Origin: Fimbriimonas sp.
GTDB taxonomy: Bacteria; Armatimonadota; Fimbriimonadia; Fimbriimonadales; Fimbriimonadaceae
Direction: 5' to 3'
Assembly: GCA_030447945.1 (NCBI GenBank)
Contig: JAUJNV010000034.1
Span: 1 to 18,023, forward strand
Length of the DNA: 18,023 nt
In this document: piece by piece, positions 1,795-17,061 of the stretch
Layout: every line of letters starts with the position of its first letter
How positions within the stretch are numbered: position 1 is the stretch's first letter
Notes under the pieces: generated by a model
Databases searched by the model: none
The model's input: the letters and a program-made list of their open reading frames with translations, nothing else
What the model was told of the DNA's origin: nothing
Program-made: the position numbers and the translations under genes

Positions 1795-2205
1795 ATGGAC
1801 AACGATCAGACAGGCAATTCGGCGGCGGACGCGCAGAGTCAGGGCATGGCGCTGGGCATGGCCCAGGCCGCCCGCGAGGAAGCGGCGACCGTGGCGGGAA
1901 CGGCCACCGGAATGGCGGCGGCGACCGCGCAGGCCGCGCGGGAGTACGCGGCGCTCGGGACGGGGACGGCGACAGGCATGGCCGCGGGGGCAGCCCAGGC
2001 GGCGCGAGAAGCCACCGCGATGGCAACCGGCGGGGCGGCGGGGCTCGCCACCGGAACCGCTCAGGCCGCCCGCGAGACGGCGGCGGGAGCCATCGGCTCC
2101 GCAACCGGCGCGGCCAGCGGATTCAGCTTGGGGCTGCTCGTCGGCGTAATGACCGGCATGTTCGCGATCATGGTCGGCATGACGATCGGTCGCAACGAGA
2201 AGTAG
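1795..2205 (+). CDS. Alanine-rich 22-residue-repeat protein with C-terminal membrane segment
   Basis: The start ATG at 1795 is chosen because AAGGAGAG lies 6 bases upstream, the best ribosome site in this part of the window. The 136-residue product has a polar N-terminus of 17 residues, then four consecutive 22-residue repeats (bases 1846-2109), each carrying a core like TAQAARE-x-AA and ending in a G-T-A-T-G-like turn. It then has a glycine-rich hydrophobic segment (LGLLVGVMTGMFAIMVGMTIG) and a short charged tail. The core closely resembles the 11-residue motif of group 3 LEA proteins (TAQAAKEKAGE), and 22 is twice 11. An amphipathic helix lying on or near a membrane and anchored by its C-terminus is likely; a role in desiccation or membrane stress is inference from the motif. 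The family is not firmly identified. Confidence 0.8.
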   Translation: MDNDQTGNSAADAQSQGMALGMAQAAREEAATVAGTATGMAAATAQAAREYAALGTGTATGMAAGAAQAAREATAMATGGAAGLATGTAQAARETAAGAIGSATGAASGFSLGLLVGVMTGMFAIMVGMTIGRNEK

Positions 2206-2215
2206 GCCTGCGGGG

Positions 2216-2322
2216 GAGATATGAGATGTGAGATATGAGATATGAGATGAGAGATCCGGGCACCGGTGGTCTTCTCTTTCCCATCTCCAATCTCACATCT
2301 CTCATCTCTCATCTCACATCTC
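2216..2322. repeat. Heptamer-repeat inverted pair, GAGATAT type
   Basis: The left arm 2216-2255 is a tandem array of 7-base units (GAGATAT, GAGATGT, GAGATAT, GAGATAT, GAGATGA). The right arm 2283-2322 is an array of the complementary units (ATCTCAC, ATCTCTC). The arms are separated by about 27 bases of ordinary sequence. A long imperfect hairpin would form in either transcript. It begins 11 bases after the stop of the 22-residue-repeat gene and ends just before the DinB-like stump. Confidence 0.85.
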
Positions 2323-2346
2323 CTGGTTCGTGTTACGATGGCTCCC

Positions 2347-2418
2347 ATGGACCTTCAGGAGCAGATCGTGGATGCTTGGCGCATCCACAACCACATCCAC
2401 CTTTACCTGCTGGGCTAG
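2347..2418 (+). pseudogene. DinB-like N-terminal stump, truncated
   Basis: ATG at 2347 opens a 23-codon frame (MDLQEQIVDAWRIHNHIHLY, then LLG) that ends in TAG at 2416-2418. It resembles the first helix of DinB/DUF664-type four-helix proteins, metal-binding enzymes acting in thiol or stress chemistry, whose N-terminus commonly reads as a leading helix with W-R-x-x-N and L-Y-L-L. The frame breaks off exactly where the next heptamer array begins, and no downstream continuation of the family is found. TACGATGGCTCCC lies directly upstream of the ATG, so a promoter could still be present. A short unrelated peptide is the alternative. Confidence 0.45.
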
Positions 2419-2420
2419 AG

Positions 2421-2512
2421 GGGAGAGGGGTTGAGGGTTGAGGTACAAGCCTGTCCGGGAAATCCAAAACCCGAAACCTAAAACCCAAAACCTCAACCCT
2501 CTCGAAAGCCCC
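2421..2512. repeat. Heptamer-repeat inverted pair, GGTTGAG and AAAACCC types
   Basis: The left arm contains GGTTGAG repeated (2430-2443), followed by the motif GAGGTACAAGCC at 2440-2451. The right part 2466-2490 is an array of AAAACCC/AAAACCT heptamers. Bases 2491-2501 (CCTCAACCCTC) are the exact inverted copy of 2433-2443. It therefore combines two unit types, one of them paired and the other single. It starts immediately after the stop of the DinB-like stump. A further short hairpin (CGAAAGCCCC with GGGGTTTCG, about 2503-2530) lies between it and the sigma-factor gene. Confidence 0.8.
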
Positions 2513-2560
2513 AACTTTCTCGGGGTTTCGTAACGACTAGAAGGGCAGGATGGGACGCAG

Positions 2561-3151
2561 GTGAGCATGAGGCTCCTCACGGGAGGGGGGACTCGGAGCA
2601 GGGCCGAGGCCGGGGACGAAGTTCTGCGCGTGCAGCGCGCGGCGGCCGGCAATCAGGCTGCGTTCGAAAACCTGTTCCGTGAGCATCAAGACGGGCTGCG
2701 CCGGTTCCTCGCGAGCCGCGTAAAGCCGCCGTTCCTCGACGACCTCCTGCAGGAGGTGTGGCTCGCCGCATGGACGTCGCTCCCGCGCTACGACGAGCGG
2801 TGCCGCTTCAAGACATGGCTCTTCGCCGTCGCGGTCAACAAGTATCGCGACCACTGCCGCCGCCGCGCCCGTGCGGTGACCGAGGTGTCTCTGAGCGAGG
2901 TCGAGGGGTGGGCAGGGACGGGCGACCTGTCGGGAAGGCTGGAGGCGACCGAAGCGGTGAGAGCCATGCTGCAGACCCTTTCGGCGGCGCAGCGCGAGGT
3001 GTTGGACCTCTACTACGGCTCGGGGCTCACCCTAGCCGAGGTAGGGCGAGCGCTGGGGAGGAACCTCAACACCGTCAAGTATCAGTTTTATCGAGCCCAC
3101 GCAGTTCTCGCGCAGGCTTTGAAGGAGGAAGAGAATGGCCAAGGAATGTGA
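2561..3151 (+). CDS. ECF-family RNA polymerase sigma factor
   Basis: This 196-residue protein has the two-domain ECF layout. Region 2 is at about residues 34-102, with the typical FENLFREHQDGLRRFL opening, the DLLQEVWLAAW helix that binds the core polymerase, and the FKTWLFAVAVNKYRDHCRRR segment for -10 recognition. A short linker follows, then region 4 at about 132-186 with the helix-turn-helix GLTLAEVGRALGRNLNTVKY. It directs core RNA polymerase to a dedicated promoter set. The start used is GTG at 2561; ATG at 2567 in the same frame is equally possible. It overlaps the following anti-sigma gene by 17 bases, so the two are translated as a pair and the anti-sigma factor probably holds it inactive. 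Confidence 0.93.
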   Translation: MSMRLLTGGGTRSRAEAGDEVLRVQRAAAGNQAAFENLFREHQDGLRRFLASRVKPPFLDDLLQEVWLAAWTSLPRYDERCRFKTWLFAVAVNKYRDHCRRRARAVTEVSLSEVEGWAGTGDLSGRLEATEAVRAMLQTLSAAQREVLDLYYGSGLTLAEVGRALGRNLNTVKYQFYRAHAVLAQALKEEENGQGM

Positions 3152-3641
3152 GGCCCGAGACGCCGAACTGCTTATGCTCGACCACGGCGGGCTCTCGTGG
3201 GGACGGAGGGCGATCACCCTCGCGCATCTGATGCGCTGTCCGGAGTGCCGCAAGCGCCGCGACGAGCTCGCCCGCACGTCCGCATGGATGGCGAACGCCA
3301 TCGGCACCGGGATGGCCCACGCGACACCAGGCCCCAGCGTGTCGATCCTGAATATGAGCGCCCTCGTGTTGGCGGGGGCGATGCTGGGGACCTACGTAGG
3401 CGCGCGCACCGCGCCGGCCGCCCCCCCCGAGCCCTCGATCGCCACCGCTTCCTCGTGCGGCGCCCACCGCCCGGCGCCTGCCGTGGCGGTAGAGGAGGCG
3501 AAGGCCGTACCCGCGAGCGGCTCCACGCCGAAGGTCTCGGAGGCGCCGCAAGGCGCGTGCTCCATTAATGGGAAAGGGGAGAAGGTCGAAGCGCCCGCGC
3601 CCGGCGGAGCGTGCGGCCAATGCGGCGAGAGCGGAGGCTGA
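3135..3641 (+). CDS. Zinc-finger-type anti-sigma factor with cysteine-bearing C-terminal tail
   Basis: This 168-residue protein has an N-terminal zinc-binding anti-sigma motif, H31-x3-C35-x2-C38 (HLMRCPEC), with H17 or C5 as a possible fourth ligand. One membrane span follows at about residues 70-88 (ILNMSALVLAGAMLGTYVGA), then a Pro/Ala-rich outer segment. The tail carries four cysteines (SSCGAH, GACSING, GACGQCGESGG), including a final C-x2-C. By family analogy the cytoplasmic domain sequesters the sigma factor encoded just upstream. The gene begins inside that gene, and AAGGAGG about 8 bases before its ATG supports translational coupling. The outer cysteines suggest a redox- or metal-responsive sensor, but that is inference. 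Confidence 0.85.
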   Translation: MAKECEARDAELLMLDHGGLSWGRRAITLAHLMRCPECRKRRDELARTSAWMANAIGTGMAHATPGPSVSILNMSALVLAGAMLGTYVGARTAPAAPPEPSIATASSCGAHRPAPAVAVEEAKAVPASGSTPKVSEAPQGACSINGKGEKVEAPAPGGACGQCGESGG

Positions 3642-3655
3642 TCCCGATCAGCCTC
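3634..3655. terminator. Palindromic hairpin between convergent genes
   Basis: GAGGCTGATC at 3634-3643 and GATCAGCCTC at 3646-3655 are perfect inverted copies separated by two bases. The hairpin overlaps the stop codon of the anti-sigma gene and lies 8 bases from the stop of the convergent minus-strand gene. It could serve as a terminator in both directions. No T run follows, so intrinsic termination is not certain. Confidence 0.5.
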
Positions 3656-3662
3656 GGGTCCT

Positions 3663-4430
3663 CTAGCGTTCCGCAGGTTCCTCCAGCGTGCTCCAAGAAT
3701 CCACTGCGGCGGCACGGCGTCGGGGGACGCGCGGAAGAGGGGGCGCGCGACGGGCCGCCCACCCGACGATCAGGGGAATGAAGCTGAGGAGACCGTAGGT
3801 GAGGAAACTCAGCACCAGCCCCGGGTGGCCCAGCGGCATTCCTTGCCCGATGGCCAGCCCCGCCACCGCAAACCCCCAGCCGAAGAAGGCATATGAGAGT
3901 CGCACCCATAGCGACGGACTGGCGACGGATGCTCTCCATACGCGCTCGAAGACAAACTGGGCTGCGTTGGGCACGTTCCGGGCCAGCGTCTTCAGGATCA
4001 CGGAGACCCCGGTCCCCATCGCGGAGAACAGCAGCAGTGCATACGGCATGGACTCCCACCGCTTCACGAGAAACGACCACTCCGGCCGATCCGGTTCGAT
4101 ATACGCGCTCACCTCCTGGCCCACCTCGAACATCGCCCTCACCCGGGGATCGTACGACTCCATGGGTGTGGCGGGGGAGAGGGGAAACGTGCGGGAAGAC
4201 TCGTACATCCTCCCTCCGAACGCATAGCGGTAACGGAAGAGATACACACGAAACCGGCCCGAGCGATAGGTATGATGCCTGCCCACTTCCGCCTCCGTCA
4301 CCACGGCAGGAACGGTCGTTTGCATCGCCATCGCCCGGCGCTGGGTCTCCGACTGGACGTAGCCCAAGCCCGTCAAGACAGCGTAGAGGAGGATGGGAAC
4401 GAGAAAGCCGAAGCGGGCGAGCCCTGGCAC
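3663..4430 (-). CDS. DUF3592-like membrane protein
   Basis: This 255-residue protein has a hydrophobic segment at residues 7-24, a soluble stretch of about 100 residues, and three or four further hydrophobic segments at about 128-148, 176-196 and 203-224. The soluble stretch contains YRYAFGGRMYESSR (67-80) followed by GQEVSAYIEPDRPEWSFL (104-121). This is the typical DUF3592 pattern of a small beta domain in which a Y-x-V-x-G-x-x-Y strand precedes a G-x-x-V-x-x-x-Y-x-P-x-x-P motif. The function of that family is not known to me. The start is GTG at 4430, with GGAGGGAG about 12 bases upstream. It follows the upstream minus-strand gene by 44 bases and probably shares its transcript. Confidence 0.75.
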   Translation of the reverse strand: MPGLARFGFLVPILLYAVLTGLGYVQSETQRRAMAMQTTVPAVVTEAEVGRHHTYRSGRFRVYLFRYRYAFGGRMYESSRTFPLSPATPMESYDPRVRAMFEVGQEVSAYIEPDRPEWSFLVKRWESMPYALLLFSAMGTGVSVILKTLARNVPNAAQFVFERVWRASVASPSLWVRLSYAFFGWGFAVAGLAIGQGMPLGHPGLVLSFLTYGLLSFIPLIVGWAARRAPPLPRVPRRRAAAVDSWSTLEEPAER

Positions 4431-4474
4431 TGGTTACGCGGCTCCCTCCGAGGAGGTGGCGCAGCATCACGTCC

Positions 4475-4975
4475 TCAGCACTCCTCTTTGTCCGTGAGGT
4501 AGCTCTGCAATTCCGTCGGCGAGACGACGAGGACGTTCGGCTTCGCCAGGCGCACGAACTCCTCGAACGACACGTCCTCGACTTCGCCCGTTTGGCGGAA
4601 CTCGTCGTACATGGTCCGCAGCACGTGCATCTCCGTGGGGAGCGTCGGGAAGGCGTCGAGCCAAAGCCCCGGCCGGTCGTCGCCGCTGCTGTAGGCGACC
4701 GCCGCGATGAACGCGTGCGCTACGGCCCCTCCCGCGGGCTCCGGCGAGCCGTCGAGTGACCAGTGCCCCTCGCGCGCCTCGAACCCCGCCCCCTCCAACA
4801 CCTCCCGCGCGGCCTCCACGGACACCTTCGCCACGCAAACCACCAACGCTTGGCGATCGAGCCGTGCGGAAGTGACGAGCGACCCCGCCGGGTGCGGCGC
4901 GAGATAAGCCTCACGGTGCCCCAGCACCCGCTGCACCGTCTGCGCAAACTGCTCGAAGGGGACGTGGAGGGTCAT
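4475..4975 (-). CDS. Hypothetical soluble protein
   Basis: I do not recognise this 166-residue soluble protein. It has no signal peptide or membrane segment. The ATG at 4975 is preferred because the frame upstream of it (20 more codons) is only the translated heptamer repeat. The sequence looks like alternating alpha and beta elements (RQALVVCVAKVSVEAAREVL, then FEEFVRLAKPNVLVVSPTEL) and ends in DKEEC. The heptamer array touches the start codon and leaves no visible ribosome site, so either the original leader was displaced or the transcript is leaderless. It probably forms a two-gene transcript with the DUF3592-like gene downstream. Confidence 0.6.
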   Translation of the reverse strand: MTLHVPFEQFAQTVQRVLGHREAYLAPHPAGSLVTSARLDRQALVVCVAKVSVEAAREVLEGAGFEAREGHWSLDGSPEPAGGAVAHAFIAAVAYSSGDDRPGLWLDAFPTLPTEMHVLRTMYDEFRQTGEVEDVSFEEFVRLAKPNVLVVSPTELQSYLTDKEEC

Positions 4976-5019
4976 GGGGGGATGATGGCTGATTGCTGAT
5001 GGGTGATGGGTGATGGGTG
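4976..5019. repeat. Heptamer array, TGATGGG type, left boundary of the four-helix unit
   Basis: The sequence runs from GGGGGATGATGGCTGATTGC into three copies of TGATGGG. It lies between the start codon of the hypothetical gene on the minus strand and the stop codon of the four-helix-bundle gene. The inverted copy is at 5434-5556. Both outer ends read GGGGGATGAT inward, so the two arms form terminal inverted repeats. Confidence 0.8.
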
Positions 5020-5394
5020 TCACCGCGTCGTCCACTCGTCAGCATAGGCAATCATGCCGCCTAAGGTGCGCAAGACGGCTTCGTAACCGCTTCGTAATTC
5101 GACTCCCTCGGCCTCTGCGATGTATCCGCACCGGACGCTGAAGTCGAGCCACGTCTGTGTCTCGGCGGCTTCGGCCTTAGAGTCGTACAACTTGCTCACG
5201 AAAACCGCCGGGTAGCGTCGTGTGTGCCACGCCTCCGCAAGGTTGGCGCAGACCGACCTATCTGAGCGCCGCCATTGGTCGGTAAGCGGAGACACCTCGG
5301 ACTTTGGAAAAGCCTCCGAAAGCTCGAAAAGGCGCATCGCCAATGTAAATGCGCGTTGATAAACCTGAAGATCGTCGTGACCCTGCACCAACAT
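5020..5394 (-). CDS. Four helix bundle protein (S23 rRNA intervening-sequence / Avd-like family)
   Basis: The 124-residue product fits the usual family length of 115-130. It opens with the D-L-x-V-Y-x-x-A motif (HDDLQVYQRAF), then has helix 2 with LTDQWRRSDRSVCANLAEAW, helix 3 with FVSKLYDSKAEAAETQTWL, and a final helix with YEAVLRTLGGMI. All are hallmarks of the TIGR02436 family. Homologues are encoded in 23S rRNA intervening sequences; a related protein (Avd) assists reverse transcriptase in diversity-generating retroelements. No reverse transcriptase or rRNA is seen here. The start at 5394 is preferred; ATG at 5436 or GTG at 5439 in frame would take the N-terminus into the adjoining heptamer repeat. 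Nucleic-acid binding is plausible from the family, but the role here is unknown. Confidence 0.88.
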   Translation of the reverse strand: MLVQGHDDLQVYQRAFTLAMRLFELSEAFPKSEVSPLTDQWRRSDRSVCANLAEAWHTRRYPAVFVSKLYDSKAEAAETQTWLDFSVRCGYIAEAEGVELRSGYEAVLRTLGGMIAYADEWTTR

Positions 5395-5433
5395 CGCCTT
5401 CAAAGTTCGACTTGCTCCCACAAGTTTCCTTCT

Positions 5434-5556
5434 CATCACCCATCAGATATCACTCATCACCTCTCCCCATCAGCCCTCATCCTTTACCCATCACCCCCAT
5501 CACCTCCCTCCCCTCACCCATCAGCAATCACCCTCACCCATCAGATATCATCCCCC
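5434..5556. repeat. Heptamer array, CCCATCA type, right boundary of the four-helix unit
   Basis: This 123-base run of degenerate CCCATCA and CACCCAT units is the inverted counterpart of 4976-5019, and it is longer than that arm. CAGATATCA occurs at both ends of it, and CAGCAATCA near the right end matches the inverse of TGATTGCTG in the left arm. It ends at CATCCCCC, immediately before the GTG start of acs. Confidence 0.8.
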
Positions 5557-7613
<2,057 letters not shown>

Positions 7614-7634
7614 CCTCCCAAGAGCCCGAAGGGT

Positions 7635-7733
7635 TGTAGCCGCAGGATGTTTGTGCCTGCGTAAGAGCTTACGGATCACCCGCAGCTTTTCGGGCATCGA
7701 CGAGCCCACGCAGGCACGGAGCCTGCGGCTACA
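7635..7733. repeat. Inverted repeat TGTAGCCGCAGG, possible terminator
   Basis: TGTAGCCGCAGG (7635-7646) plus GTGCCTGCGT (7653-7662) are matched in reverse by ACGCAGGCAC (7708-7717) and CCTGCGGCTACA (7722-7733). The hairpin lies 21 bases after the acs stop and ends about 80 bases before the next gene on the same strand. It is not of the 7-base-period type and is a separate repeat family. It could end the acs transcript. Confidence 0.7.
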
Positions 7734-7811
7734 GGGCCCTCCGGGCCCCGCCGGCCGAATTTGCACACAGACCCTAGGCGGCACCAACCTCTTCGCGGCT
7801 AATCTACGGGC

Positions 7812-8633
7812 ATGACACCCAAGGCCAAGCGGCGGGTGAAGTGGGGGCTGGGGACGCTCGGGGTGTGGGGGGCGGGGCTCGTGGGGCTCTACCAGTACCA
7901 GCCTTGGCGCTACGACTTCGTCCCCCGCACACTCCCGAACCCGAACCCGCCGGTGGACCCCGACTCCTCGCGGCTCTTCGCGAAGGGGACACGCGTGACG
8001 CTGATCACCGCCCACCCCGACGACGCCGAGTTCTATCTCGGGGGGACGCTGACCAAGCTTAAGGAGTCGGGCGCGGTGCTGAGCCTCGTCGTCTGCACGG
8101 ACGGCGACAAAGCGTACTACCGCGGCCTCTGGGGCGAGGACGCCGTGCGAAACCGGCGCGTGCGGCGGGCGGAGCAGACGGAGGCGGCGAAGCGGTGGGG
8201 GGCGACCGACGTCGTCTACCTCGGCTTCCCCGACGCGCGTCTCCCGAGCGAGGGACCGGTGGTGACGAGGCTAGTGGAGCAGCTCCAGAGGCTCCAGCCG
8301 GAGTACATCCTCGGCTTCGACAGCCAATACCCGCCGCGCCGCAGCCACGGCGACCACCGCCGAGCAGGCGAGGCGACCGACGCCGCCGTCCGCCAAGCCG
8401 GAGTGGGCCGCTGGCTCTTGAAGTACTCGACGATCGCGCCGAACTATGTCGTGGACATCACGGGCAAGTGGGAGGCGAAGAAAGACCTCCTCCGGGTCCA
8501 CGCCAGCCAGTTCAAGCCGGAGAGGTTCGCCTTCATCGAGGGCCTCGTCGGCGGCATCGCGCGTCGAGACGGCCAGCGGATCGGCGTGGAGATGGGCGAG
8601 GGGCTCCGGGCGGTGAAGCTGGGGGGGCGCTGA
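7812..8633 (+). CDS. PIG-L/LmbE family deacetylase, membrane-anchored
   Basis: Members of this family are zinc-dependent hydrolases that remove acetyl groups from N-acetylglucosamine-type sugars. The 273-residue protein shows the family zinc-site motif AHPDDAE at residues 67-73 and the second ligand motif H-x-D-H (HGDH, 179-182), so the active site looks complete. The N-terminus has a hydrophobic segment at about residues 12-27 after a basic stretch (KAKRR), so the enzyme is probably tethered to the membrane. The start ATG at 7812 has no Shine-Dalgarno sequence; TAATCT ends 6 bases upstream, which would suit a leaderless transcript. The substrate is unknown. The stop TGA (8631) is shared with the repeat that separates it from the convergent gene. 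Confidence 0.88.
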   Translation: MTPKAKRRVKWGLGTLGVWGAGLVGLYQYQPWRYDFVPRTLPNPNPPVDPDSSRLFAKGTRVTLITAHPDDAEFYLGGTLTKLKESGAVLSLVVCTDGDKAYYRGLWGEDAVRNRRVRRAEQTEAAKRWGATDVVYLGFPDARLPSEGPVVTRLVEQLQRLQPEYILGFDSQYPPRRSHGDHRRAGEATDAAVRQAGVGRWLLKYSTIAPNYVVDITGKWEAKKDLLRVHASQFKPERFAFIEGLVGGIARRDGQRIGVEMGEGLRAVKLGGR

Positions 8634-8734
8634 CGCGCTTGTGGTTTGTAGCTTGTAGTTTGTGGGGGGTGGCCTGAGTAAGGATCCGCCCTTCACAAGC
8701 TACAAACCACAAGCCACACGCCACAGGCGCGTCA
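8631..8734. repeat. Heptamer-repeat inverted pair between convergent stops, TTGTGGT type
   Basis: The left arm reads TGACGCGC, then TTGTGGT-TTGTAGC-TTGTAGT-TTGTGGG (to about 8667). The right arm 8694-8734 is the inverted copy and ends in GCGCGTCA. The outer eight bases of each arm contain the stop codon of the flanking gene in mirror symmetry (TGA at 8631-8633 on plus, at 8734-8732 on minus). The element can fold from either strand and is well placed to terminate both transcripts. Confidence 0.85.
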
Positions 8735-9184
8735 GTCCGGCCGCGAGTTGCCCGTCCGCTTGGGGTTGATTGGGCCGTCGGGCGGGGTCTTTTTTCGCTG
8801 GCGGGAGGGCTTGGCAGGCTGGGGCGTCGGCGGTACGGGGTCGGGGGAGGCGCCGTCGCCGGCGGCTTCCACGCCCTGCATGGCCTCGAGCTCCTCTTGT
8901 CCGGTGGGGGAGGCGGAGGTGATGGGGACGTCGCCGGCGGTCTTGCCGACTTTCGTGGTCTTTTTCTTGGTATCCACATCGGGCTTGGGCGGCTCGGCCT
9001 CGGGTTCGGTTCCGCGAGGCTCGTCATCCGGTGCCCGTAGGTACTCGCCCGCCTTCACGAGCGCGTCTCCCAGGGAACGGGTGAACGGCTTCATGTGGCG
9101 CAGGGCGACGGGCACGAGCGCCGCCGCGAGCACGATCAGCCCCGCGCGGCCGGGAGGAATGATGCCTTGGGGAGGGAGTCTCAT
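8732..9184 (-). CDS. Hypothetical small membrane protein with charged tail
   Basis: This 150-residue protein is of unrecognised family. One hydrophobic segment occupies about residues 14-29 (AGLIVLAAALVPVALR), followed by a short helical stretch (FTRSLGDALVKAGEYL). The remaining 100 residues are low-complexity and rich in Pro, Glu, Lys and Thr, and look disordered. It is the third gene of the minus-strand series after ileS and lspA, 69 bases beyond lspA. The gap between them is filled by a heptamer repeat that ends a few bases from its ATG and leaves no ribosome site. Confidence 0.6.
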   Translation of the reverse strand: MRLPPQGIIPPGRAGLIVLAAALVPVALRHMKPFTRSLGDALVKAGEYLRAPDDEPRGTEPEAEPPKPDVDTKKKTTKVGKTAGDVPITSASPTGQEELEAMQGVEAAGDGASPDPVPPTPQPAKPSRQRKKTPPDGPINPKRTGNSRPD

Positions 9185-9190
9185 GGTGGG

Positions 9191-9269
9191 GCGTTGAGGC
9201 GTTGAGTTAGCTTCCCCTTTACCTTACACCGGTTAATGATCCCCTCTCCTCCCCTAACACTCAACACTC
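9191..9269. repeat. Heptamer-repeat inverted pair between lspA and downstream gene, GCGTTGA type
   Basis: The left arm 9191-9210 (GCGTTGAGGCGTTGAGTTAG) is mirrored by CTAACACTCAACACTC at 9254-9269. The right arm encodes the last residues and stop codon of lspA (ESVEC-stop). The unit GCGTTGA is the same as that of the element inside acs. Confidence 0.75.
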
Positions 9270-9946
9270 TCCCCCGAGGTTTCAGTCGCGGGGGAGGGCC
9301 GGGGCTTTTGGCCCGCTTCGCGGAGCCAGGCGAACATCAGCATCACCGTCGCGACGGTGATGCAGGAGTCGGCGATGTTGAACACCGGGAAGTTAATCGG
9401 GCGGAACCAGAGCATGTCGGTCACGCGCCCGTGCGCGATGCGATCGATGAGGTTGCCGATCGCTCCGCTCGCGAGCAGCCCCATGGCGAAGTGAGACCAA
9501 GAGGACTCCCTCGGGTGGCGCAGGCTGTACCAGGCCGCGCCCAGCGCGATCGCCACGGCGACCGGCGCGAGCAGGACGCCCTGCCCCTGCAAGAGTCCGA
9601 AGGCGATCCCTTCGTTGTAGGTGAGCGTGAACTCGAATATCCCCGGGAAAGGAGGACTTCCGGGAAGGCCTCCCCCCTCCGCCATGGACCCCCGCGCCCA
9701 AGCCTTCACGACCTGATCCACCGCCACCATCAGCACGAGCGTCCCCCAGAAGGCAAGGCGGTGCTTCAGGAGGCTGCCTTTTGAGATGATGGGTGAGGGA
9801 GGGGTGATGGGTGATGGGTGATGGGTAATGGGTGAGAGAGGTGAGGGATCTGCGAACAGCGTATCGCCGTTCTCACCTCTCACACCTCCTTCACCTCTCT
9901 CACCACCCTCACCCAATTCACCCCCCTCAACCCTCACCTCACTCAT
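9254..9946 (-). CDS. lspA: Lipoprotein signal peptidase (signal peptidase II) with repeat-encoded N-terminal extension
   Basis: LspA cleaves the signal peptide of diacylglyceryl-modified prolipoproteins in the inner membrane. The core from about residue 61 has the four hydrophobic segments, the D-Q-x-x-K motif after the first segment, YNEGIAFGLL, and both catalytic aspartates (GNLIDR, D168; FNIADS, D193). The ATG at 9946 overlaps the ileS stop as ATGA, the usual sign of translational coupling. That start gives about 58 extra hydrophilic residues rich in Gly/Glu and then Pro/Ser/His, translated straight from the heptamer arrays at 9786-9945. No standard internal start lies just before the first membrane segment. 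The last residues also come from a heptamer arm. ileS-lspA is a common gene order. Confidence 0.92.
   Translation of the reverse strand: MSEVRVEGGELGEGGERGEGGVRGENGDTLFADPSPLSPITHHPSPITPPSPIISKGSLLKHRLAFWGTLVLMVAVDQVVKAWARGSMAEGGGLPGSPPFPGIFEFTLTYNEGIAFGLLQGQGVLLAPVAVAIALGAAWYSLRHPRESSWSHFAMGLLASGAIGNLIDRIAHGRVTDMLWFRPINFPVFNIADSCITVATVMLMFAWLREAGQKPRPSPATETSGESVEC
9786..9945. repeat. Heptamer-repeat inverted pair at the ileS-lspA junction, TGATGGG type
   Basis: The left arm 9786-9849 contains repeated TGATGGG units, then GTGAGAG/GTGAGGG. The right arm 9871-9945 is built of CACCTCT, CACCCTC and CAACCCT units. The core TGATGGG is shared with the arms bounding the four-helix-bundle unit at 4976-5556. 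It occupies the 5' end of the lspA reading frame and begins inside the ileS stop codon. Confidence 0.8.
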
Positions 9947-12747
9947 ATCCCCAGCACCCTTCGGTCGCGGGCGGTGAGGGGCACTTCGGAACCGTTCCAT
10001 GAGACGACCTCGACGTCGGGGCGGCGGAGGCGGGAGCGCTCGCACTTGAGGAACCCGCTCTTGCGGAAGGCGACCGCGCGCGGACCTTCCTCCAGATCCA
10101 CCCAGCTCACCTTGAGCAGGTTCGCGAGCTCGTCCGTCCCGAAGGAGCGCAGCACGGCAAGCGGCTGCCCCTCTTCGTGGATCGTGGCGATGGCGTCCTG
10201 GCTGTCCTTCACGTCGTCCGTTCCCTTCCACGCCTCGAACGCCGCGAACGCGTCGGCCCGCACCCTCAGGAGTGCCGCGAAGCGCTCCCCCAGGCCGCTC
10301 GCGGCGATCTCTTCCAGCCGCTCCGCGCTCGGTGGGTCGAAGGTCTGGACATGCACCGTGTCTCCGGCTTCCGGATCACCGGCAGGAGTGCCGGTGCCGC
10401 GGGGAGGGTTGGAAGGATGCGGGATGCGCGCCCAGGTCTCCTCGGCGGTGTGCATGAGGATGGGGGCGAGGAGCTTGACGAGGGTGAGGAGCACGTGGTG
10501 GCAGGCGGCTTGGCCCGAGCGGCGCTCGGGGGAGTCCGTCTGCTCGCAGTACATCCGGTCCTTGATCGCGTCAAGGTAGAAGCGCGACATCTCCTCGCGG
10601 CAGAAGTTGTGGATGCGGCCGATAACCGCGCCGAAGTCGTACCGCTCGTAGGCGGCGACGCACTCCGCCGCGAGCAGGTCCGCCTGCTCCATCGCCCAGA
10701 GGTCCAGAGGCAGCTCCGGCGGCTCGCCGGGCTCGAACCCCGCGAGGTTCGAGAGCAGGAACCGCAGGGTGTTGCGGACGTTTCGGTAACTCTCGCCGAA
10801 CTGCTTCAGGAGCGCTTCGGAGCAGGGGACGTCGTTCGCCCAGTCCACGCTCGCCACCCAGTACCGCAGCACGTCCGCGCCGTGCGTCTCGGCGGCCTTC
10901 ACCGGGTCGACGACGTTCCCGAACCGCTTGGACATCTTCTGCCCCTTTTCGTCGTTGACGAACCCGTGCGTCACGACCTGCTTGTACGGCGCCGCGCCAC
11001 GCGTCCCCTCGGCGATGATGAGCGACGCGTTGAACCAGCCGCGATGCTGGTCGGAGCCCTCGAGGTAGAGGTCGGCGGGCCACTCTTCTTTCCAAGCCGC
11101 TTCGACGTTCCCTTCCAGCACGCACAGCGACGTGGAGCCGGCGTCGAACCACACGTCCAGCACGTCGGTCTCCTTCGCGAACTCCGTCTCCCCCGTCTCC
11201 GGGTGCCGGTACCCCTCGGGGAGGATCTCGCTCGGGTCCTTGTCGAACCAGGCGTCCGAGCCTTCTCGCTCGAGGAGCCGCGCGACGGCCTCGATCGCGA
11301 CCGGGTCGAGCACCGGCCGACGGGTCTGCGCGCCGTAGAAGACGGGGATGCCCACGCCCCACGGTCGCTGGCGGGAGACGCACCAGTCGGGGCGGTTGCG
11401 GACCATCGCCTCGATCCGGTTGAAGCCCGAAGGGGGAACCCAGCCGACCTTCTCGACCTCCTCCAGCATCGCCGGGCGCAGGGGGTCGATGGAGACGAAC
11501 CACTGCTCGGTCGCCCGGAAGATCACGGGCTGCCCGTCCCGCTCCGCGTACGGGTAGGAGTGGCGGTAGTCGTACGCGTTCAGGAGGTTGCCCACCTCGG
11601 CGAGCCGGTCGACGACGACCGTGTCGCACTCCTTGTAGTAGGTTCCGGCGAACTCGCCCGCCTCGGCGGTGAGCACACCCCGCTCATCCACCGTGTTCGG
11701 GACGGGCAGGCCGTATTTCTGGCCCGTATAGAAGTCGTCGCGGCCGTGCGAGGGGGCAGTGTGGACGACGCCCGTGCCGTCCTCGGTCGTCACGTACTCG
11801 GCGAGCACGCCCACCGACGGTCGGTCGAAGATCGGGTGCTTGAACGCGATCCCCTGCAGGTCCTCGCCCTGGATCCGTCCGACGACCTCGTACCCGTCCC
11901 ACCCGACGGCGTCGGCGACGCGCGGCAGCAGATCGTGTAGGACGAGGTAGTGGTCGTTCCCCACTCGCGCCACCGCGTACTCGAACTCCGGGTGGAAGGC
12001 GCACGCGAGGTTGGAGGGGATGGTCCACGGCGTGGTCGTCCAGATGACGGTGTAGAGGTTTGGGTAGTCCGCCAGGAGGTCCTGGGGGTCCTCCAGCAGG
12101 GGGAAGCGGACGTAGATCGCGCGGGAGACGTGGTCGTGGTAGACGATCTCGGTGTCCGCGAGGGCGGTGCGGGAGGTCGGGCTCCAGAGGGTCGGGCGCA
12201 GGCCCTTGTAGACGTAGCCGCCCTCGACGAGCCGCCGGAACACGCGCACGATCTCCGCCTCGAAGCGGAAGTCCATCGTCGTGTACGGCTTTTCCCAGAG
12301 CCCGAAGACGCCGAGTCGCTTGAACTGTGCGGTCTGCACCCCCACGTACTCCGCCGCGTGCTCGCGGCAGGCCCGGCGCAGCTCGATGACGCTGGGCGTG
12401 ATCTTTTTATCCGTGAACTTCTTCATCACGGTCTGCTCGATGGGCAGCCCGTGGTTGTCGAAGCCGGGGACGTAGGGGCAGCGGAAGCCCATCATCGTGC
12501 GCGACTTCGTGACGAAGTCCTTGAGGACCTTGTTCAGCGCGGTTCCGATGTGGATGGGCGAGTTCGTGTAAGGCGGGCCGTCGTGCAGAACGAAGCTCGG
12601 CGCGTCCTTGCGGGCGGCCTGGATCTCGTGGTAGATGCTCCGCCGCTCCCACTCCTCCTGGAGGCGCGCCTCCAGTTGGGGAAGGTTCGCCTTCATCGGG
12701 ATCGTCGCCTCCCCATCGGGAAGATTCAGCGTGCTCCGGAGGTCCAT
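9943..12747 (-). CDS. ileS: Isoleucyl-tRNA synthetase
   Basis: It charges tRNA-Ile with isoleucine using ATP and acts in the cytosol. The 934-residue class I synthetase has the HIGH motif as HIGT (residues 66-69, in SPIHIGTALNK), the editing domain, and KMSKR at 604-608. The start ATG at 12747 (MDLRSTLNLPDGE) is chosen because the frame upstream is only translated repeat sequence. The C-terminus reads KCERSRLRRPDVE and ends LTARDRRVLGI. Where bacterial enzymes of this type normally carry two C-x-x-C pairs for zinc, only one cysteine remains. TACAAT, a good -10 box, lies 12 bases before the ATG. The stop overlaps the lspA start (ATGA). Confidence 0.97.
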   Translation of the reverse strand: MDLRSTLNLPDGEATIPMKANLPQLEARLQEEWERRSIYHEIQAARKDAPSFVLHDGPPYTNSPIHIGTALNKVLKDFVTKSRTMMGFRCPYVPGFDNHGLPIEQTVMKKFTDKKITPSVIELRRACREHAAEYVGVQTAQFKRLGVFGLWEKPYTTMDFRFEAEIVRVFRRLVEGGYVYKGLRPTLWSPTSRTALADTEIVYHDHVSRAIYVRFPLLEDPQDLLADYPNLYTVIWTTTPWTIPSNLACAFHPEFEYAVARVGNDHYLVLHDLLPRVADAVGWDGYEVVGRIQGEDLQGIAFKHPIFDRPSVGVLAEYVTTEDGTGVVHTAPSHGRDDFYTGQKYGLPVPNTVDERGVLTAEAGEFAGTYYKECDTVVVDRLAEVGNLLNAYDYRHSYPYAERDGQPVIFRATEQWFVSIDPLRPAMLEEVEKVGWVPPSGFNRIEAMVRNRPDWCVSRQRPWGVGIPVFYGAQTRRPVLDPVAIEAVARLLEREGSDAWFDKDPSEILPEGYRHPETGETEFAKETDVLDVWFDAGSTSLCVLEGNVEAAWKEEWPADLYLEGSDQHRGWFNASLIIAEGTRGAAPYKQVVTHGFVNDEKGQKMSKRFGNVVDPVKAAETHGADVLRYWVASVDWANDVPCSEALLKQFGESYRNVRNTLRFLLSNLAGFEPGEPPELPLDLWAMEQADLLAAECVAAYERYDFGAVIGRIHNFCREEMSRFYLDAIKDRMYCEQTDSPERRSGQAACHHVLLTLVKLLAPILMHTAEETWARIPHPSNPPRGTGTPAGDPEAGDTVHVQTFDPPSAERLEEIAASGLGERFAALLRVRADAFAAFEAWKGTDDVKDSQDAIATIHEEGQPLAVLRSFGTDELANLLKVSWVDLEEGPRAVAFRKSGFLKCERSRLRRPDVEVVSWNGSEVPLTARDRRVLGI

Positions 12748-12759
12748 GGGGAAGAGCGC

Positions 12760-12765
12760 ATTGTA
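12760..12765 (-). promoter_or_regulatory. Candidate -10 box for ileS
   Basis: TACAAT on the minus strand, 12 bases before the ileS ATG, matches the sigma-70 -10 consensus in five of six positions. No clear -35 box is seen 17 bases further upstream. The 5' untranslated leader would be only about 5 bases. An identical TACAAT lies 9 bases before the PhyH start (15609-15614). Confidence 0.35.
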
Positions 12766-12792
12766 CCTGCGGCCTCCGGGAGCCCCTCTGGG

Positions 12793-12901
12793 AGGGTTAC
12801 AGGTTTCAGGTTGAAGGTTTCCGGCTGGGAGGTGAGGGATGGGGGTTGAGGGCTGAGGTACTAACCTATACCTGGACACCTGAACACCCGAACCCCCTCT
12901 G
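12793..12901. repeat. Heptamer-type repeat upstream of ileS, AGGTTTC and ACCTGAAC types
   Basis: The left part contains AGGTTTC-AGGTTGA-AGGTTTC (12800-12820), then GAGGTGAGGG and GGGTTGAGGGCTGAGG. The sequence GAGGTACTAACC follows at 12855-12866. The right part 12864-12901 has ACCTAT-ACCTGGAC-ACCTGAAC-ACCCGAAC, a 7-8 base period, and mirrors the left arm imperfectly. It fills the space between the divergent ileS and DUF1579 genes. Confidence 0.7.
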
Positions 12902-12946
12902 CGGTCATGTGGAAAATTTTGTGTAGAAAAGATACGGCCTAATCGC

Positions 12947-12957
12947 TAGAATGGCTC
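12947..12957 (+). promoter_or_regulatory. Candidate -10 region of DUF1579 gene (TAGAATGGCTC)
   Basis: TAGAATGGCTC lies 30 bases before the ATG at 12988. The same 11 bases occur on the minus strand upstream of the lipoprotein gene (14361-14351), and a 9-of-11 match (TACGATGGCTC) precedes the DinB-like stump at 2334. The recurrence just upstream of three starts suggests a promoter box. No convincing -35 is present. Confidence 0.35.
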
Positions 12958-12987
12958 CCGGCGGACCGCCCACATCTCTCTAAAGCC

Positions 12988-13515
12988 ATGAAAAGAATCG
13001 CACTCGCCCTCCTCGTCCTCGGCGCCTTCGCGTCCGTTCGCCCCGTCCTCGCCCAAGGGATGCCCAAGCCGCCGCCGGAGATGAAGAAGCTCGACATCTT
13101 CCTCGGCGAGTGGAGCGGCAAGACCTCGTTCCATGCGCCCGGGCAGCCCGCGATGAGCGTGGACAGCACCATGAAGTCCGACGCTTTTGCCGGGGGGATG
13201 TACCTCCGGACGGTCTACGCGATGGACATTCCCGGCGTGGGCAAGATGGAGGGCACCGTCCTCGCGTTTTGGGATGCGGAAGCCAGGCAGTACCGCTGCT
13301 ACACCTTCGAGAACGCGGCGCCGACCCCGCGCGAGGAGTCAGGCACGTTCGCGGGGAATAAGCTCGTGCTGGTGAGCAAACCGCACGGCGGAACGGTCAC
13401 CCGCTCCACGTTCGACTTCAAGAGCGATCGGGAGGTCCTGTTCACCGTCGAGATAAAGCAGGGCGAGAAGTGGGTCAAGGCCGGCAGAGGGCTGTACACG
13501 AAGAAGGGGGGTTAG
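12988..13515 (+). CDS. Exported DUF1579 family protein
   Basis: This 175-residue protein has a clear signal peptide: MKRIALALLVLGAFASVRPV, then LAQG, with likely cleavage after the alanine at 22. The mature part follows the DUF1579 pattern: a leading L-x-x-F-L-G-E-W-S-G (residues 35-44), a central G-G-M-Y-L-R segment, and FWDAEARQYRCYTFEN, which predict a small beta-barrel of the lipocalin/fatty-acid-binding sort. The biochemical role of the family is not known to me; binding a small hydrophobic ligand outside the cytoplasm is a guess from the fold. It stands alone and is convergent with the lipoprotein gene, with a strong hairpin between them. Confidence 0.82.
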   Translation: MKRIALALLVLGAFASVRPVLAQGMPKPPPEMKKLDIFLGEWSGKTSFHAPGQPAMSVDSTMKSDAFAGGMYLRTVYAMDIPGVGKMEGTVLAFWDAEARQYRCYTFENAAPTPREESGTFAGNKLVLVSKPHGGTVTRSTFDFKSDREVLFTVEIKQGEKWVKAGRGLYTKKGG

Positions 13516-13524
13516 GCGGTGCGT

Positions 13525-13550
13525 CCTCCCTTGGAAGACTCCAAGGGAGG
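13525..13550. terminator. Bidirectional hairpin terminator
   Basis: CCTCCCTTGGA (13525-13535) and TCCAAGGGAGG (13540-13550) form a perfect 11-bp stem with a 4-base loop. It is centred in the 45-base gap between the stops of the convergent DUF1579 and lipoprotein genes. There is no long T run on either side. Confidence 0.7.
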
Positions 13551-13560
13551 GCCGCCGACG

Positions 13561-14343
13561 CTACTCGCCGAGCTTGAACGAATTCAGGATGACCGGCAGC
13601 TCGCCCTTGGTGCCGAGGTCGTCGATGCTCTTGATCTCCGGCGCCACGTCGGAGGCGAGCATGACGAGGGTCACGCCCTCCTTCTTTCCGGCGGGACCCG
13701 GCAGGAAGACGAGCTTCCCCCAGAGCGTGATCTCGCCTCGCTTGGAATCCGTGGGGTGGGACTCGAACCGCAGCTCGTACCCCTTGTAGTCACCGACCGT
13801 GGTCTCGCCTTCGCCCAGCTTCTGGTACTTGGGGAAGCCCGCCTTGAGCTGCTCCTCGAACTTCTGGATGAGCTGCGGAATGAGGACCTTGTCGGTCGCC
13901 TCGGCGCCGCTGCCGGAGAAGTAGCCGACCGCGAAATTCTCGGGTTCGAAGTCGCTCCCCTCGGGGACAGGCCGGATGACCTTGATAAAGTTCTGCGCGG
14001 TAGGGCTCCCGATCCCGGGGCCGACGGTCCACGTGCTGGGGTAGTCAAAGGAGAAGTCGACGTAGTTCGCCGCCAGCTTCTCCGCTACCGCGTTCTTCTC
14101 GCGCGAGTTGACGAACTTCGTGGTCGCGACGGCCGAGTCGTCCGTACCGCTCGATGTAGCGGTGCTGCCCGGGGCGTCGTCCGACCCCGCGCCGCTCGAC
14201 GTAGCCGTGCTGACGGCTGGATCGTCGTTCTGCGCGGTCGTGCCGGACTTGTCGCCGCAGCCACCTACGGCAAGGATTGCGGCGAGGGCGAGAACCGTCC
14301 AAGGCGCTGACGAAAGGCGAGTGGGTGTCTTGTGCATCTTCAT
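13561..14343 (-). CDS. Putative lipoprotein with PsbP/DUF1795-like domain
   Basis: This 260-residue precursor has a type II signal peptide: hydrophobic residues 15-26, then AVGGC with the lipidated cysteine at 29, a substrate type for the LspA encoded in this window. A flexible linker at about 30-75 is rich in Ser, Thr, Gly and Asp and contains two near copies of STATSSG followed by D residues. The folded part begins near YVDFSFDYPSTWTVGPG and continues with matching strands, ending with VILNSFKLGE. This is the layout of PsbP/Mog1/DUF1795-like domains (F-x-x-x-Y-P-x-x-W). The function is unknown. The start ATG is at 14343; an in-frame ATG two codons later is possible. It is convergent with the DUF1579 gene. 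Confidence 0.82.
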   Translation of the reverse strand: MKMHKTPTRLSSAPWTVLALAAILAVGGCGDKSGTTAQNDDPAVSTATSSGAGSDDAPGSTATSSGTDDSAVATTKFVNSREKNAVAEKLAANYVDFSFDYPSTWTVGPGIGSPTAQNFIKVIRPVPEGSDFEPENFAVGYFSGSGAEATDKVLIPQLIQKFEEQLKAGFPKYQKLGEGETTVGDYKGYELRFESHPTDSKRGEITLWGKLVFLPGPAGKKEGVTLVMLASDVAPEIKSIDDLGTKGELPVILNSFKLGE

Positions 14344-14350
14344 CTGAGGT

Positions 14351-14361
14351 GAGCCATTCTA
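14351..14361 (-). promoter_or_regulatory. Candidate -10 region of the lipoprotein gene (TAGAATGGCTC)
   Basis: On the minus strand TAGAATGGCTC ends 7 bases before the ATG at 14343. It is identical to the sequence upstream of the DUF1579 gene. The transcript would have only a very short leader. Confidence 0.35.
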
Positions 14362-14422
14362 TCACGATGGACCCAGGGCCCACGCAACCTTTCCTTTCCG
14401 CCGCTCGTCCGACCCTGCGACT

Positions 14423-14578
14423 ATGGGTTGCTTTCGCGCGATTCTGTGTCTGCTCCTCCCGCCCCTCGCGGTGCTCGACAAGGGGTGCGGCTCCGTCCTG
14501 ATCGTGTGCGTCCTTACCGCCCTCGGCTGGGTCCCCGGCGTCATCGCCGCCCTGGTGCTTTGCTCGAAGGAACCGTAG
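14423..14578 (+). CDS. YqaE/Pmp3 (UPF0057) family small membrane protein
   Basis: ATG at 14423 opens a 51-residue frame, too short for many gene callers. The protein has two hydrophobic helices. The first contains ILCLLLPPLAVLDKGCG, the conserved L-P-P-L-x-V signature, and the second LTALGWVPGVIAALVLC, matching the family L-x-x-L-G-x-x-P-G-x-x-H/A-A. Members of this family (yeast Pmp3, bacterial YqaE) sit in the plasma membrane and influence membrane potential and salt tolerance. It lies 79 bases from the divergent lipoprotein gene. A heptamer repeat begins 5 bases after its stop. Confidence 0.87.
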   Translation: MGCFRAILCLLLPPLAVLDKGCGSVLIVCVLTALGWVPGVIAALVLCSKEP

Positions 14579-14583
14579 GGGTG

Positions 14584-14700
14584 GGTCGTTGGTCGTTGAT
14601 CGTTGATCCGGTGGGGAAGCATGCCTGCCCATGTGGGCAACGGACTGTGCTCTTGTTCCACGGATCACGACCAACGACCAACAATCAACGACTAACCACG
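14584..14700. repeat. Heptamer-repeat inverted pair, GTCGTTG type
   Basis: The left arm 14584-14610 is GGTCGTTG-GTCGTTG-ATCGTTG-ATCCG. The right arm 14661-14700 is CGGATCA, CGACCAA, CGACCAA, CAATCAA, CGACTAA. The 50-base middle holds a second short palindrome (GCCTGCCCATGTGGGC). It lies between the YqaE stop and the convergent PhyH gene, whose stop falls in the right arm, and may end both transcripts. Confidence 0.85.
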
Positions 14701-15599
14701 TCTCCCGCGCTGCAGTACGTGCCGGGGGTGTGTACCAGGTGGGCTACCTTGAGCTCTGTCGCGCCGCGTCTCCGAGGGGGCGGGTCGGAAGGGCTCGTCC
14801 GCGCGCCACTCGTACTGGGGTTCGTTCGGGAAGGCCTTTCGGTAGGCGTCGAGCGCGACGGGGAGGAGGCGCATCCGCTTTTCGATCCACTCCCGATCCC
14901 ACGGGCCTTCGGAGAGGATCTGCTCGGCGCTGCGGAACTCGTAGTAGATCGTGCGGCGCAGGGCGTTCCCCTGCGCCCGCTCGGAGCCGTGAGCGACCAT
15001 CACGTCGTGCAGCAGCACATCCCCCGGCTCCATCTCCGCGTGGATCACGCCAGGCGCCTCCCAACCGTGTTGGGCCTCGAGCGCGCAAAAAATCGAACGG
15101 CTTGCCCTGGCTTCCCGGAATCACGCGCAGAGCCCTGCGCCCTTCCTCGAGGCGTCGAGGTAGAGGTCGTAATTGAAGATCCGGTGGTTGCGCGGGTGCA
15201 CCGCGTCCTGGTGCCAGCGGATCTTTTCGCCGTCTCCTTCCTGCTTGAACACCATGCTCTCGTAAGTGGGCACGAAGTTGCGCCCGCAGAGGCTCTCCGC
15301 GACCGCGAGCACTTGGGGCGCGCCCAGCATCTCAAGCGAGGCGGGTTCCCCTTGTCGTGCAGGTAATCCACCCGGAACATCACCCTCCCGTTCTCGCGCT
15401 GCGCGAAGGCGAAATCGTCGTGGCCGGGCTCGTCCGGCGTCAGGCGATGCCCCTGCTCGATCCACCGGCGTCCTGCCTCCTGCAATCGCGCCAGGAGCGG
15501 CCCGGCGATCCAGTTCCGCAGGATGACGTAGCCGTCCCGATCGAATGCGGCGATCTGCTCCTCGGTGAGGTGGTAAGGCGTGAGGGTGGCGGCGCTCAT
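14692..15599 (-). pseudogene. Phytanoyl-CoA dioxygenase (PhyH) family protein, frame-broken as sequenced
   Basis: PhyH proteins are Fe(II)/2-oxoglutarate-dependent oxygenases. The start is ATG at 15599 (opening with PYHLTEEQIAAFDRDGYVIL, the family's N-terminal pattern). The metal ligands are intact: H-x-D in RWHQDAVHP (15205-15213) and the distal histidine in VAHGSERAQ (14989-14991), followed by the 2-oxoglutarate-binding arginine in LRRTIYYEF. The frame shifts at about 15343 (a C missing in a C run), just upstream of 15121 (a G missing) and near 15088 (T6 where T5 is needed). Reading through these gives about 300 residues, normal for the family. All three shifts lie in base runs, so sequencing error is likely. 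TACAAT ends 9 bases before the start. The substrate is unknown. Confidence 0.85.
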
Positions 15600-15623
15600 A
15601 AGGCTTTTATTGTAAGGCTTCTG

Positions 15624-15664
15624 GAAGTTAGAAGTTAAAGGGGAGAGATGTGAGATGTGAGGTA
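15624..15664. repeat. Heptamer array, GAAGTTA and GAGATGT types, single arm
   Basis: GAAGTTA occurs twice (15624-15637), then GAGATGT twice, then GAGGTAC. The motif GAGGTACAAGCC (15659-15670) is identical to 2440-2451. No inverted partner is evident. It lies between the PhyH start and the nucleoside phosphorylase stop. Confidence 0.7.
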
Positions 15665-15686
15665 CAAGCCCATCCCTGTCCCCTCC

Positions 15687-17015: not shown

Positions 17016-17061
17016 AGCCCACAGTGTTCCCGAACGTGTCTCCGTAAGTGAAACTCTGCAC

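Follow-up and report, generated by a model that had tools for sequence, protein, structure and literature searches.

Heptamer-repeat hairpins in a Fimbriimonas contig: a probable family of small elements resembling 23S rRNA intervening sequences

A contig from Fimbriimonas sp. (NCBI GenBank assembly GCA_030447945.1, contig JAUJNV010000034.1, positions 1 to 18,023, the whole of which is called the window below) carries scattered tandem arrays with a repeat period of about seven nucleotides, several of them with an inverted copy close by, and raises the question of what produces such hairpins. A first-pass annotation of the window proposed a shared generating mechanism, such as hairpin-primed synthesis or slippage of a 7-base unit. 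The data support a common origin but favour a family of elements tied to the gene for the 23S rRNA-intervening sequence protein (S23 or IVP) over slippage or hairpin-primed synthesis alone. We consider it reasonably probable that the hairpins make up one family of small elements that resembles the intervening sequences (IVS) of 23S rRNA, is sited between and inside protein genes, and has gene-less relatives. The family is best seen as a known kind of element, the IVS, found in new surroundings and on a new scale.

Tandem Repeats Finder (TRF) confirms arrays of period 7 at the positions named in the first-pass annotation, and gives period 8 at 6969 and 9190. In a lag scan, which accepts a 28-nt stretch if 76% or more of it matches at the lag in question, the window has 11 arrays at lag 7, while 20 second-order Markov sequences average 0.05; three arrays occur at lag 8, three at lag 9, and one at lag 12, with none at lags 5, 6, 10, or 11. 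The period, described at first as constant, is mostly 7, but the locus at 6970 reads as 8 and two parts of C-rich arms (5486-5517 and 9883-9913) read as 9. Repeat units mostly differ from locus to locus, TGATGGG being used at two. Six pairs, namely 2214-2326, 4976-5024 with 5432-5556, 6968-7045, 8636-8730, 9787-9945, and 14577-14699, have an inverted partner that scores above the 99th percentile of random placements. Nine inverted pairs had been claimed, which is too many, because the pairing is borderline at 2421, weak at 12793, and unsupported at 9191 and 15624. The G-rich arm was said to be always the 5' arm; it does come first in all six supported pairs (binomial p = 0.03), but a C-first minority exists elsewhere. 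The features of the window are listed here, with strand given for the one gene.

4976-5024: outer array, unit TGATGGG, C-rich and downstream relative to the IVP gene
5020-5439, minus strand: IVP/S23 four-helix-bundle protein gene (PF05635, TIGR02436)
5432-5556: outer array, G-rich and upstream relative to the IVP gene, ending directly before the acsA start codon
2214-2326: gene-less hairpin, units GAGATAT/GAGATGT, G-rich arm first, 8 nt past the stop codon at 2203-2205
2416-2502: candidate hairpin, unit GGGTTGA, starting at the stop codon of a short truncated frame (2338-2418)
6968-7045: gene-less hairpin within the acsA reading frame, preserving it and free of stop codons, fold z -8.4
8636-8730: gene-less hairpin, units GCTTGTA/GTTTGTA, fold z -8.2
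9188-9206: short array GGCGTTGA, 2 copies (TRF)
9787-9945: gene-less hairpin, unit TGATGGG, extending to the ileS stop codon, fold z -5.6
12795-12898: weak array pair upstream of ileS
14577-14699: gene-less hairpin, unit GTCGTTG, starting at the stop codon 14576-14578, fold z -4.4
15624-15662: solitary arrays GAAGTTA and GAGATGT (TRF)

The pair at 4976 and 5434 does have inverted arms, as the first-pass annotation held, but it is not a plain hairpin, as the arms flank an IVP gene that had been missed. The protein encoded at 5020-5439 matches PF05635 (23S rRNA-intervening sequence protein) with an E-value of 2.9e-26 and 92.2 bits (cut-off 33.8), and TIGR02436 with 82.2 bits (cut-off 24). Its solved relatives are 2rld and 2gsc (XCC0516), the second of which comes from Xanthomonas according to the excerpted text of PMC4990558. 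The arms (partner score 24.5) are terminal inverted repeats able to form a stem, the outer ends of the element are mirrored, with GGGGGATGAT at both, and the whole spans from directly beside the start codon of a neighbouring gene, geneA (4973-4975), to directly beside the acsA start (5557). The isoleucyl-tRNA synthetase gene ileS (9943-12747, minus strand), intact in the window, has at most 75% identity to relatives; no closer relative was found, and all comparisons with the window are therefore across species. The class used in these comparisons is the GTDB class of one relative by ileS match, with 113 genomes, which we take to be Fimbriimonadia. The gap between geneA and acsA measures 581 bp in the window vs. 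approximately 70-106 bp in seven relatives and 239 bp in an eighth. Because the gap is short and the site empty in all eight, the element would most simply represent a gain in the window's lineage.

An IVS in the 23S rRNA of Coxiella, as described in the excerpted text of PMC4990558, contains an S23p gene with tandem heptamers upstream and a 28-bp terminal stem, and is excised by RNase III. The element at 4976-5556 has the same parts: an S23/IVP gene, terminal inverted repeats forming a stem, and tandem heptamers upstream of the open reading frame (ORF). It differs in lying between the protein genes geneA and acsA, outside any 23S rRNA gene, in arrays and units that are mostly locus-specific, and in that excision by RNase III is here presumed. 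It alone in the window has an S23/IVP ORF, the short forms being gene-less, and a search of the window with Rfam finds no family at gathering score.

Among the short forms, the partner score of 2214-2326 is 23.5, vs. 14.0 for the 99th percentile of the null, and its RNA fold has a z of -3.9. Predicted RNA stems are strong in five of nine folded window hairpins, all gene-less, with z from -3.9 to -8.4. As to the remainder, at 2416-2502, where 1% of random placements score as well, z is -1.6; at 12793 (4%) it is +0.2; at 9191, where no significant partner was found (21%), it is +0.4; and at 15624, likewise without a partner (53%), it is +0.3. The hairpin at 8636-8730 sits between two convergent stop codons (8631-8633 and 8732-8734). 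The one at 6968-7045 is open in the frame of the C-terminal half of acsA, where the protein has extra residues relative to eight relatives, within a loop of variable length. The acsA region (5557-7613) is itself split over overlapping frames, as are a minus-strand gene (14744-15599) and the thymidine phosphorylase gene (15730-17114), as from sequencing errors or gene decay; several of the frame changes in acsA lie upstream of 6968-7045, and acsA may therefore be decaying or mis-sequenced. The 26-residue frame at 2338-2418, with its stop codon exactly at the start of the 2416 array, resembles the beginning of a longer gene truncated at that array. Three array loci have in common a GGTACAAGCC-like segment in their spacers (near 2443, 12857, and 15661), located beside the inner end of the G-rich arm.

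The association of IVP genes with inverted arms extends well beyond the window and is seen in four phyla. Of the 113 genomes in the class, 54 have a PF05635 match, which exceeds the cut-off in 51; the corresponding counts are 58 and 55 for 119 Acidobacteriota genomes and 61 and 57 for 398 Pseudomonadota genomes, and none of 14 control genomes has a match. For each IVP locus, the upstream and downstream flanks were compared for inverted complementarity, and a locus passes with a score above 14, the 99th percentile of random segments. Passing loci number 56 of 77 for the class plus the window, 32 of 37 for Acidobacteriota, 22 of 30 for Pseudomonadota, and 15 of 21 for plasmids (20 cyanobacterial and one from Azospirillum), while among other small ORFs, taken from Armatimonadota and Acidobacteriota stretches, only 5 of 425 pass. 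The ratio of G-first to C-first loci is 50:5 in the class (with one locus equal), 30:2 in Acidobacteriota, 22:0 in Pseudomonadota, and 15:0 in plasmids, for a total of 117 to 7. The repeat polarity holds widely, with exceptions. When the loci are reduced to 101 similarity clusters, an average of approximately 78.5 pass, of which 72.3 are G-first and 5.2 are C-first. Lag 7 scores best in 83 of the 125 loci that pass (37 in the class, 23 in Acidobacteriota, 20 in Pseudomonadota, and 3 in plasmids). The plasmid loci favour lag 8 (8 of 15), so that the likeness to cyanobacterial heptamer repeats suggested in the first-pass annotation stands as far as cyanobacterial plasmid IVP genes carry such arms, but the commonest period there is 8.

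The IVP loci of the class are a subset of the PF05635 matches listed, while all 37 Acidobacteriota, 30 Pseudomonadota, and 21 plasmid loci collected were counted. The 77-locus count omits five loci at contig ends (L050, L059, L064, L068, and L092), six weak or distant matches (L051-L054, L061, and L062), and five duplicates (L206, L216, L220, L223, and L227). With the initial null of random segments, 63 of 77 loci exceeded a 99th percentile of 13.0; that null may include real elements (its maximum is 44.5), and the stricter threshold of 14.0 is preferred. The cross-locus null is weak for the plasmid loci because those loci share units. A scan of two 50-kb Nostoc plasmid stretches for gene-less hairpins found the IVP element of one, plus two non-periodic inverted repeats, and its threshold missed the weaker arms of the IVP gene in the second.

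The relation of such arrays to the presence of the gene was addressed with stretches of at most 20 kb, placed regardless of IVP position in hand-picked genomes, the Acidobacteriota among them mostly having several IVP genes. In the class, 12 lag-7 arrays were found in 400 kb from IVP-bearing genomes (6 of 20 stretches) vs. one in 400 kb from IVP-free genomes (1 of 20); in Acidobacteriota, 30 were found in 286 kb (11 of 20) vs. none in 337 kb (0 of 20). With both groups pooled, period-7 arrays occur in 17 of 40 IVP-bearing vs. 1 of 40 IVP-free stretches (Fisher p 2e-5). An earlier sample, placed by hand, gave 21 lag-7 arrays in 400 kb, three of them beside an IVP gene, vs. one in 394 kb. The contrast is lower at other lags, except for lag 8 in Acidobacteriota (13 vs. 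1) and lag 14, which is double 7; the 7-base peak that the first-pass annotation expected at genome scale is not refuted in relatives, where period 7 gives the largest contrast. Because the two sets of genomes are unlike in lineage and size, and the chosen Acidobacteriota are mostly IVP-rich, this is an association and not proof.

By one and the same method, the IVP-bearing stretches (1.09 Mb) yield 107 arrays of lag 7 to 9 and 18 pairs, one of them around an IVP gene, while the IVP-free stretches (1.13 Mb) yield 21 arrays and no pair. The partnered arrays away from IVP genes number 27 and form 17 distinct gene-less hairpins. Of these, 14 are G-first and 3 are C-first, and in 15 of the 17 the spacer measures 10-150 nt. 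The short forms of the window are therefore not unique, only unusually dense. Around ileS, none of 21 loci from the class shows a pair with periodic, G-rich arms at the strict threshold.

Orthologous sites give a record of turnover. In the class, 27 loci with an IVP gene or a weak IVP-like match between groES and groEL were found, of which 26 remain after the duplicate L216 is dropped; they were compared after trimming of the homologous coding flanks. The arms score a mean of 16.2 within a locus vs. 8.0 +/- 2.6 across loci, and for 23 of the 26 loci no more than 3 of 50 cross scores equal or exceed that of the locus itself, the three exceptions being L234 and the distant IVP matches L051 and L053. 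The units at this site include 7-, 9-, 10-, and 11-nt words, often different between genomes, with some genomes sharing a unit. The match is either maintained by selection on the stem or re-established by copying from arm to arm.

Evidence that bears on exchange and movement comes from two further sets of loci. Three Acidobacteriota genomes (L258, L260, and L277) have flanks 96-98% identical, and two of them share one IVP element, while the IVP gene and arms that the third carries at this site differ in sequence; the elements are therefore exchanged. The end of the neighbouring gene is more divergent beside the junction in these three. Three Nostoc plasmids have in common a unit of approximately 670-710 bp that includes the IVP gene and has the C-rich array as its right end, and just beyond that array the plasmids diverge; L143 and L147 regain 70% similarity for 165 bp slightly further on, and L138 and L143 share sequence further upstream. 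These boundaries suggest movement, without proving it. Elsewhere, IVP genes occur at operon junctions: at one such site the element lies directly before an apparent gltX, with C-rich repeats within its first codons, and at another it lies between two metabolic genes in four genomes (with the gene names assigned by eye). In L302 and L303 (~1840-1900), the C-rich side of the IVP element reads, by eye, in frame as the N-terminus of a glutamyl-tRNA synthetase-like protein.

We propose the following working of the family. Its full form is a G-rich array, an S23/IVP gene, and a C-rich array, as at 4976-5556, and its short forms, just two arrays around a spacer of some 15-70 nt, would be gene-less derivatives. 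In any transcript that crosses the element, the arrays would pair into a long stem, and because they are tandem the stem would work in many registers. RNase III probably cuts this stem, by likeness to the Coxiella IVS, and the insert would therefore be released or insulated from its neighbours; with pairing and cutting, an element in an operon would cost its neighbours little. The operon-junction positions fit such low-cost insertion. The arrays would lengthen and shorten by slippage of the unit, and the arms would be kept matched either by a copying step, such as template switching in the hairpin, or by selection for the stem. More speculatively, the G-first order, which holds on either strand, may help a nascent G-rich arm to pair, or may promote R-loops. 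Both the movement of the elements and their cutting by RNase III are inferred.

Other explanations of the hairpins must be weighed against this. Were DNA polymerase prone to slip by 7 nt, with the inverted copy arising from a switch of template at quasi-palindromes, the IVP gene would be no more than a tolerant bystander. Array lengths in close relatives do differ by 7-nt steps, behind which slippage may indeed lie, array lengths upstream and downstream are weakly correlated (Spearman 0.29, 106 loci), and a slippage proposal for heptanucleotides is cited in the excerpted text of PMC4679880. However, slippage fails to predict that arms should occur at most IVP loci and so rarely at other small ORFs, that period-7 arrays should be scarce and pairs missing in the sampled IVP-free stretches, or that the G-rich arm should come first, and we regard it as unlikely to be the whole explanation. 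Ordinary hairpins, acting as transcription terminators or mRNA stabilisers between genes with an incidental periodicity, would suit the four of six supported pairs with an end no more than 8 nt from a stop codon (2203, 8631/8732, 9943, and 14576), the good folding of five gene-less hairpins, and the two of seven terminator-like sites that overlap the ends of 8636-8730. Those seven sites, each a short stem with a T-run, overlap none of the other supported pairs and are no more frequent than in shuffles (8.6 +/- 3.0), for which reason the terminator reading was rejected. It also leaves aside the hairpin inside acsA, the IVP element in a divergent promoter gap, and the excess of lag-7 arrays over expectation, and we give it a low probability.

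Repetitive extragenic palindromic (REP) units and the REP doublets known as REPINs are small dispersed palindromic elements that share a consensus and are not heptamer arrays. Movement of REP/REPIN-type elements by REP-associated tyrosine transposases (RAYTs, with the Y1_Tnp domain) would agree with the small, dispersed, and palindromic nature of the window's hairpins, with inverted flanks above 14 at 8 of 10 RAYT loci, and with RAYT genes being commoner in IVP-bearing genomes (2-26 per genome) than in IVP-free genomes (0-7), among 10 genomes of the class each. That higher count is possibly a confounder, or else reflects a shared tolerance of small elements. A period-7 array lies near only one of the 10 RAYT loci, whose inverted flanks look non-periodic, and on this evidence the RAYT/REP reading was rejected in spite of the higher RAYT load. 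In addition, stretches of 14, 20, and 20 kb sampled from three IVP-free genomes with 4-7 RAYTs have no period-7 array, and the window's units, which mostly vary by locus, lack a conserved palindromic consensus of the kind found at RAYT genes, so that we hold this explanation to be highly improbable. Hardly credible, finally, is selection for G-tracts as G-quadruplex elements, as proposed for GGGNATC repeats in the excerpted text of PMC4692102. Several units do have G-tracts (TGATGGG and GGGTTGA), but three consecutive Gs are absent from GAGATAT, GTTTGTA, and GTCGTTG in the window and from many units across the IVP loci, where the inverted partner is nevertheless kept. PF05635 resembles Avd of diversity-generating retroelements according to the excerpted text of PMC10053308. 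A dependence on reverse transcriptase, an idea taken from this likeness, was rejected, as RVT_1 shows no difference between IVP-bearing (4 of 10) and IVP-free (3 of 10) genomes.

Several observations count against the reading of the hairpins as an IVP-linked element family. The short forms are linked to the IVP gene by architecture and co-occurrence only, and no transposase, target duplication, or excision has been demonstrated for the elements. IVP-bearing and IVP-free genomes, hand-picked as they were, differ in RAYT load as well as in lineage and size. Most lag 7-9 arrays away from IVP genes in the IVP-bearing genomes are solitary, with 27 of 103 partnered, and the window, with its 11 lag-7 arrays in 18 kb, exceeds any sampled stretch (at most 6 in 20 kb), a density that is unexplained. 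Inverted flanks are not special to IVP genes, as the seemingly non-periodic palindromes at RAYT loci demonstrate. Seven IVP loci are C-first, and periods of 8 to 11 also occur. The expected predominance of G-first pairs in relatives is seen in the C-first minorities at directional IVP loci (7 of 124) and gene-less hairpins (3 of 17), but not in a stricter ungapped scan of ten relatives, which found only two periodic pairs, one in an IVP-bearing and one in an IVP-free genome, both C-first. At the geneA-acsA site, 3 of 11 relatives have no geneA found beside acsA, and the site is not comparable there. Lastly, the heptamer repeats of Xanthomonas are generally not associated with mobile elements, according to the excerpted text of PMC4692102.

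Heptamer repeats are known from other bacteria, the short tandemly repeated repetitive (STRR) sequences of cyanobacteria being heptameric repeats. The window's arrays are likewise tandem 7-nt units, dispersed and mostly intergenic. Excerpted texts describe the repeat GGGGA(C/T)T in Nostoc (PMC4692102), TAACTGA in Beggiatoaceae (PMC4679880), and, in Xanthomonas, GGGAATC, with 70 and 75 close convergent pairs, one array per strand (PMC4692102), a paired arrangement that is also that of the window. One IVP locus, L086, even carries a GGGAATC array. Unlike in all of these repeats, the unit in the window mostly differs by locus within one genome, and no shared consensus unit exists either in the window or across the IVP loci within a single genome such as G037. 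The excerpted texts of PMC4692102 and PMC4679880 draw no link from the Xanthomonas, Nostoc, and Beggiatoaceae repeats to an S23/IVP gene, and no title or abstract among the matches listed links IVP genes outside rRNA to inverted heptamer arrays, which is weak evidence of absence. The in-frame hairpin within a protein gene at 6968-7045 also recalls the Rickettsia palindromic elements. Those are small hairpins inserted in frame in protein genes, and are not known to be heptamer arrays or to have an IVP gene.

A broader reading, possible in our view but doubtful, is that S23/IVP genes define pan-bacterial mRNA intervening elements, in which a protein of the Avd/S23 fold is flanked by self-renewing heptamer arrays whose pairing yields a stem that is processed, and that these elements seed gene-less copies and are the main source of the heptanucleotide repeats scattered in bacteria. 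A link between arrays and gene joins two loose ends, namely S23/IVP genes, which are common and lack a known function, and heptanucleotide repeats, which are abundant but patchily distributed among bacteria and whose cause is not agreed on. Should they form a single system, both would become testable, with the arrays indicating the protein's site of action and the gene telling in which genomes arrays are to be expected. The replacement of both arms in full at an orthologous site, groES-groEL, is a natural record of how inverted repeats stay matched.

Other observations concern parts of the window apart from the hairpins. The stretch 760-833 reads by eye like the 3' end of a tRNA (GGTTCGAATCC ... 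CCACCA), while ARAGORN finds no tRNA; it is perhaps a truncated tRNA or an integration scar. An ORF at 17398-17871 contains two diverged copies of a segment of approximately 190 bp, each with a GGAGCGCCT...GGCGCTCC palindrome. A 66-bp tandem repeat occupies 1861-2006, within an Ala/Gly-rich ORF.

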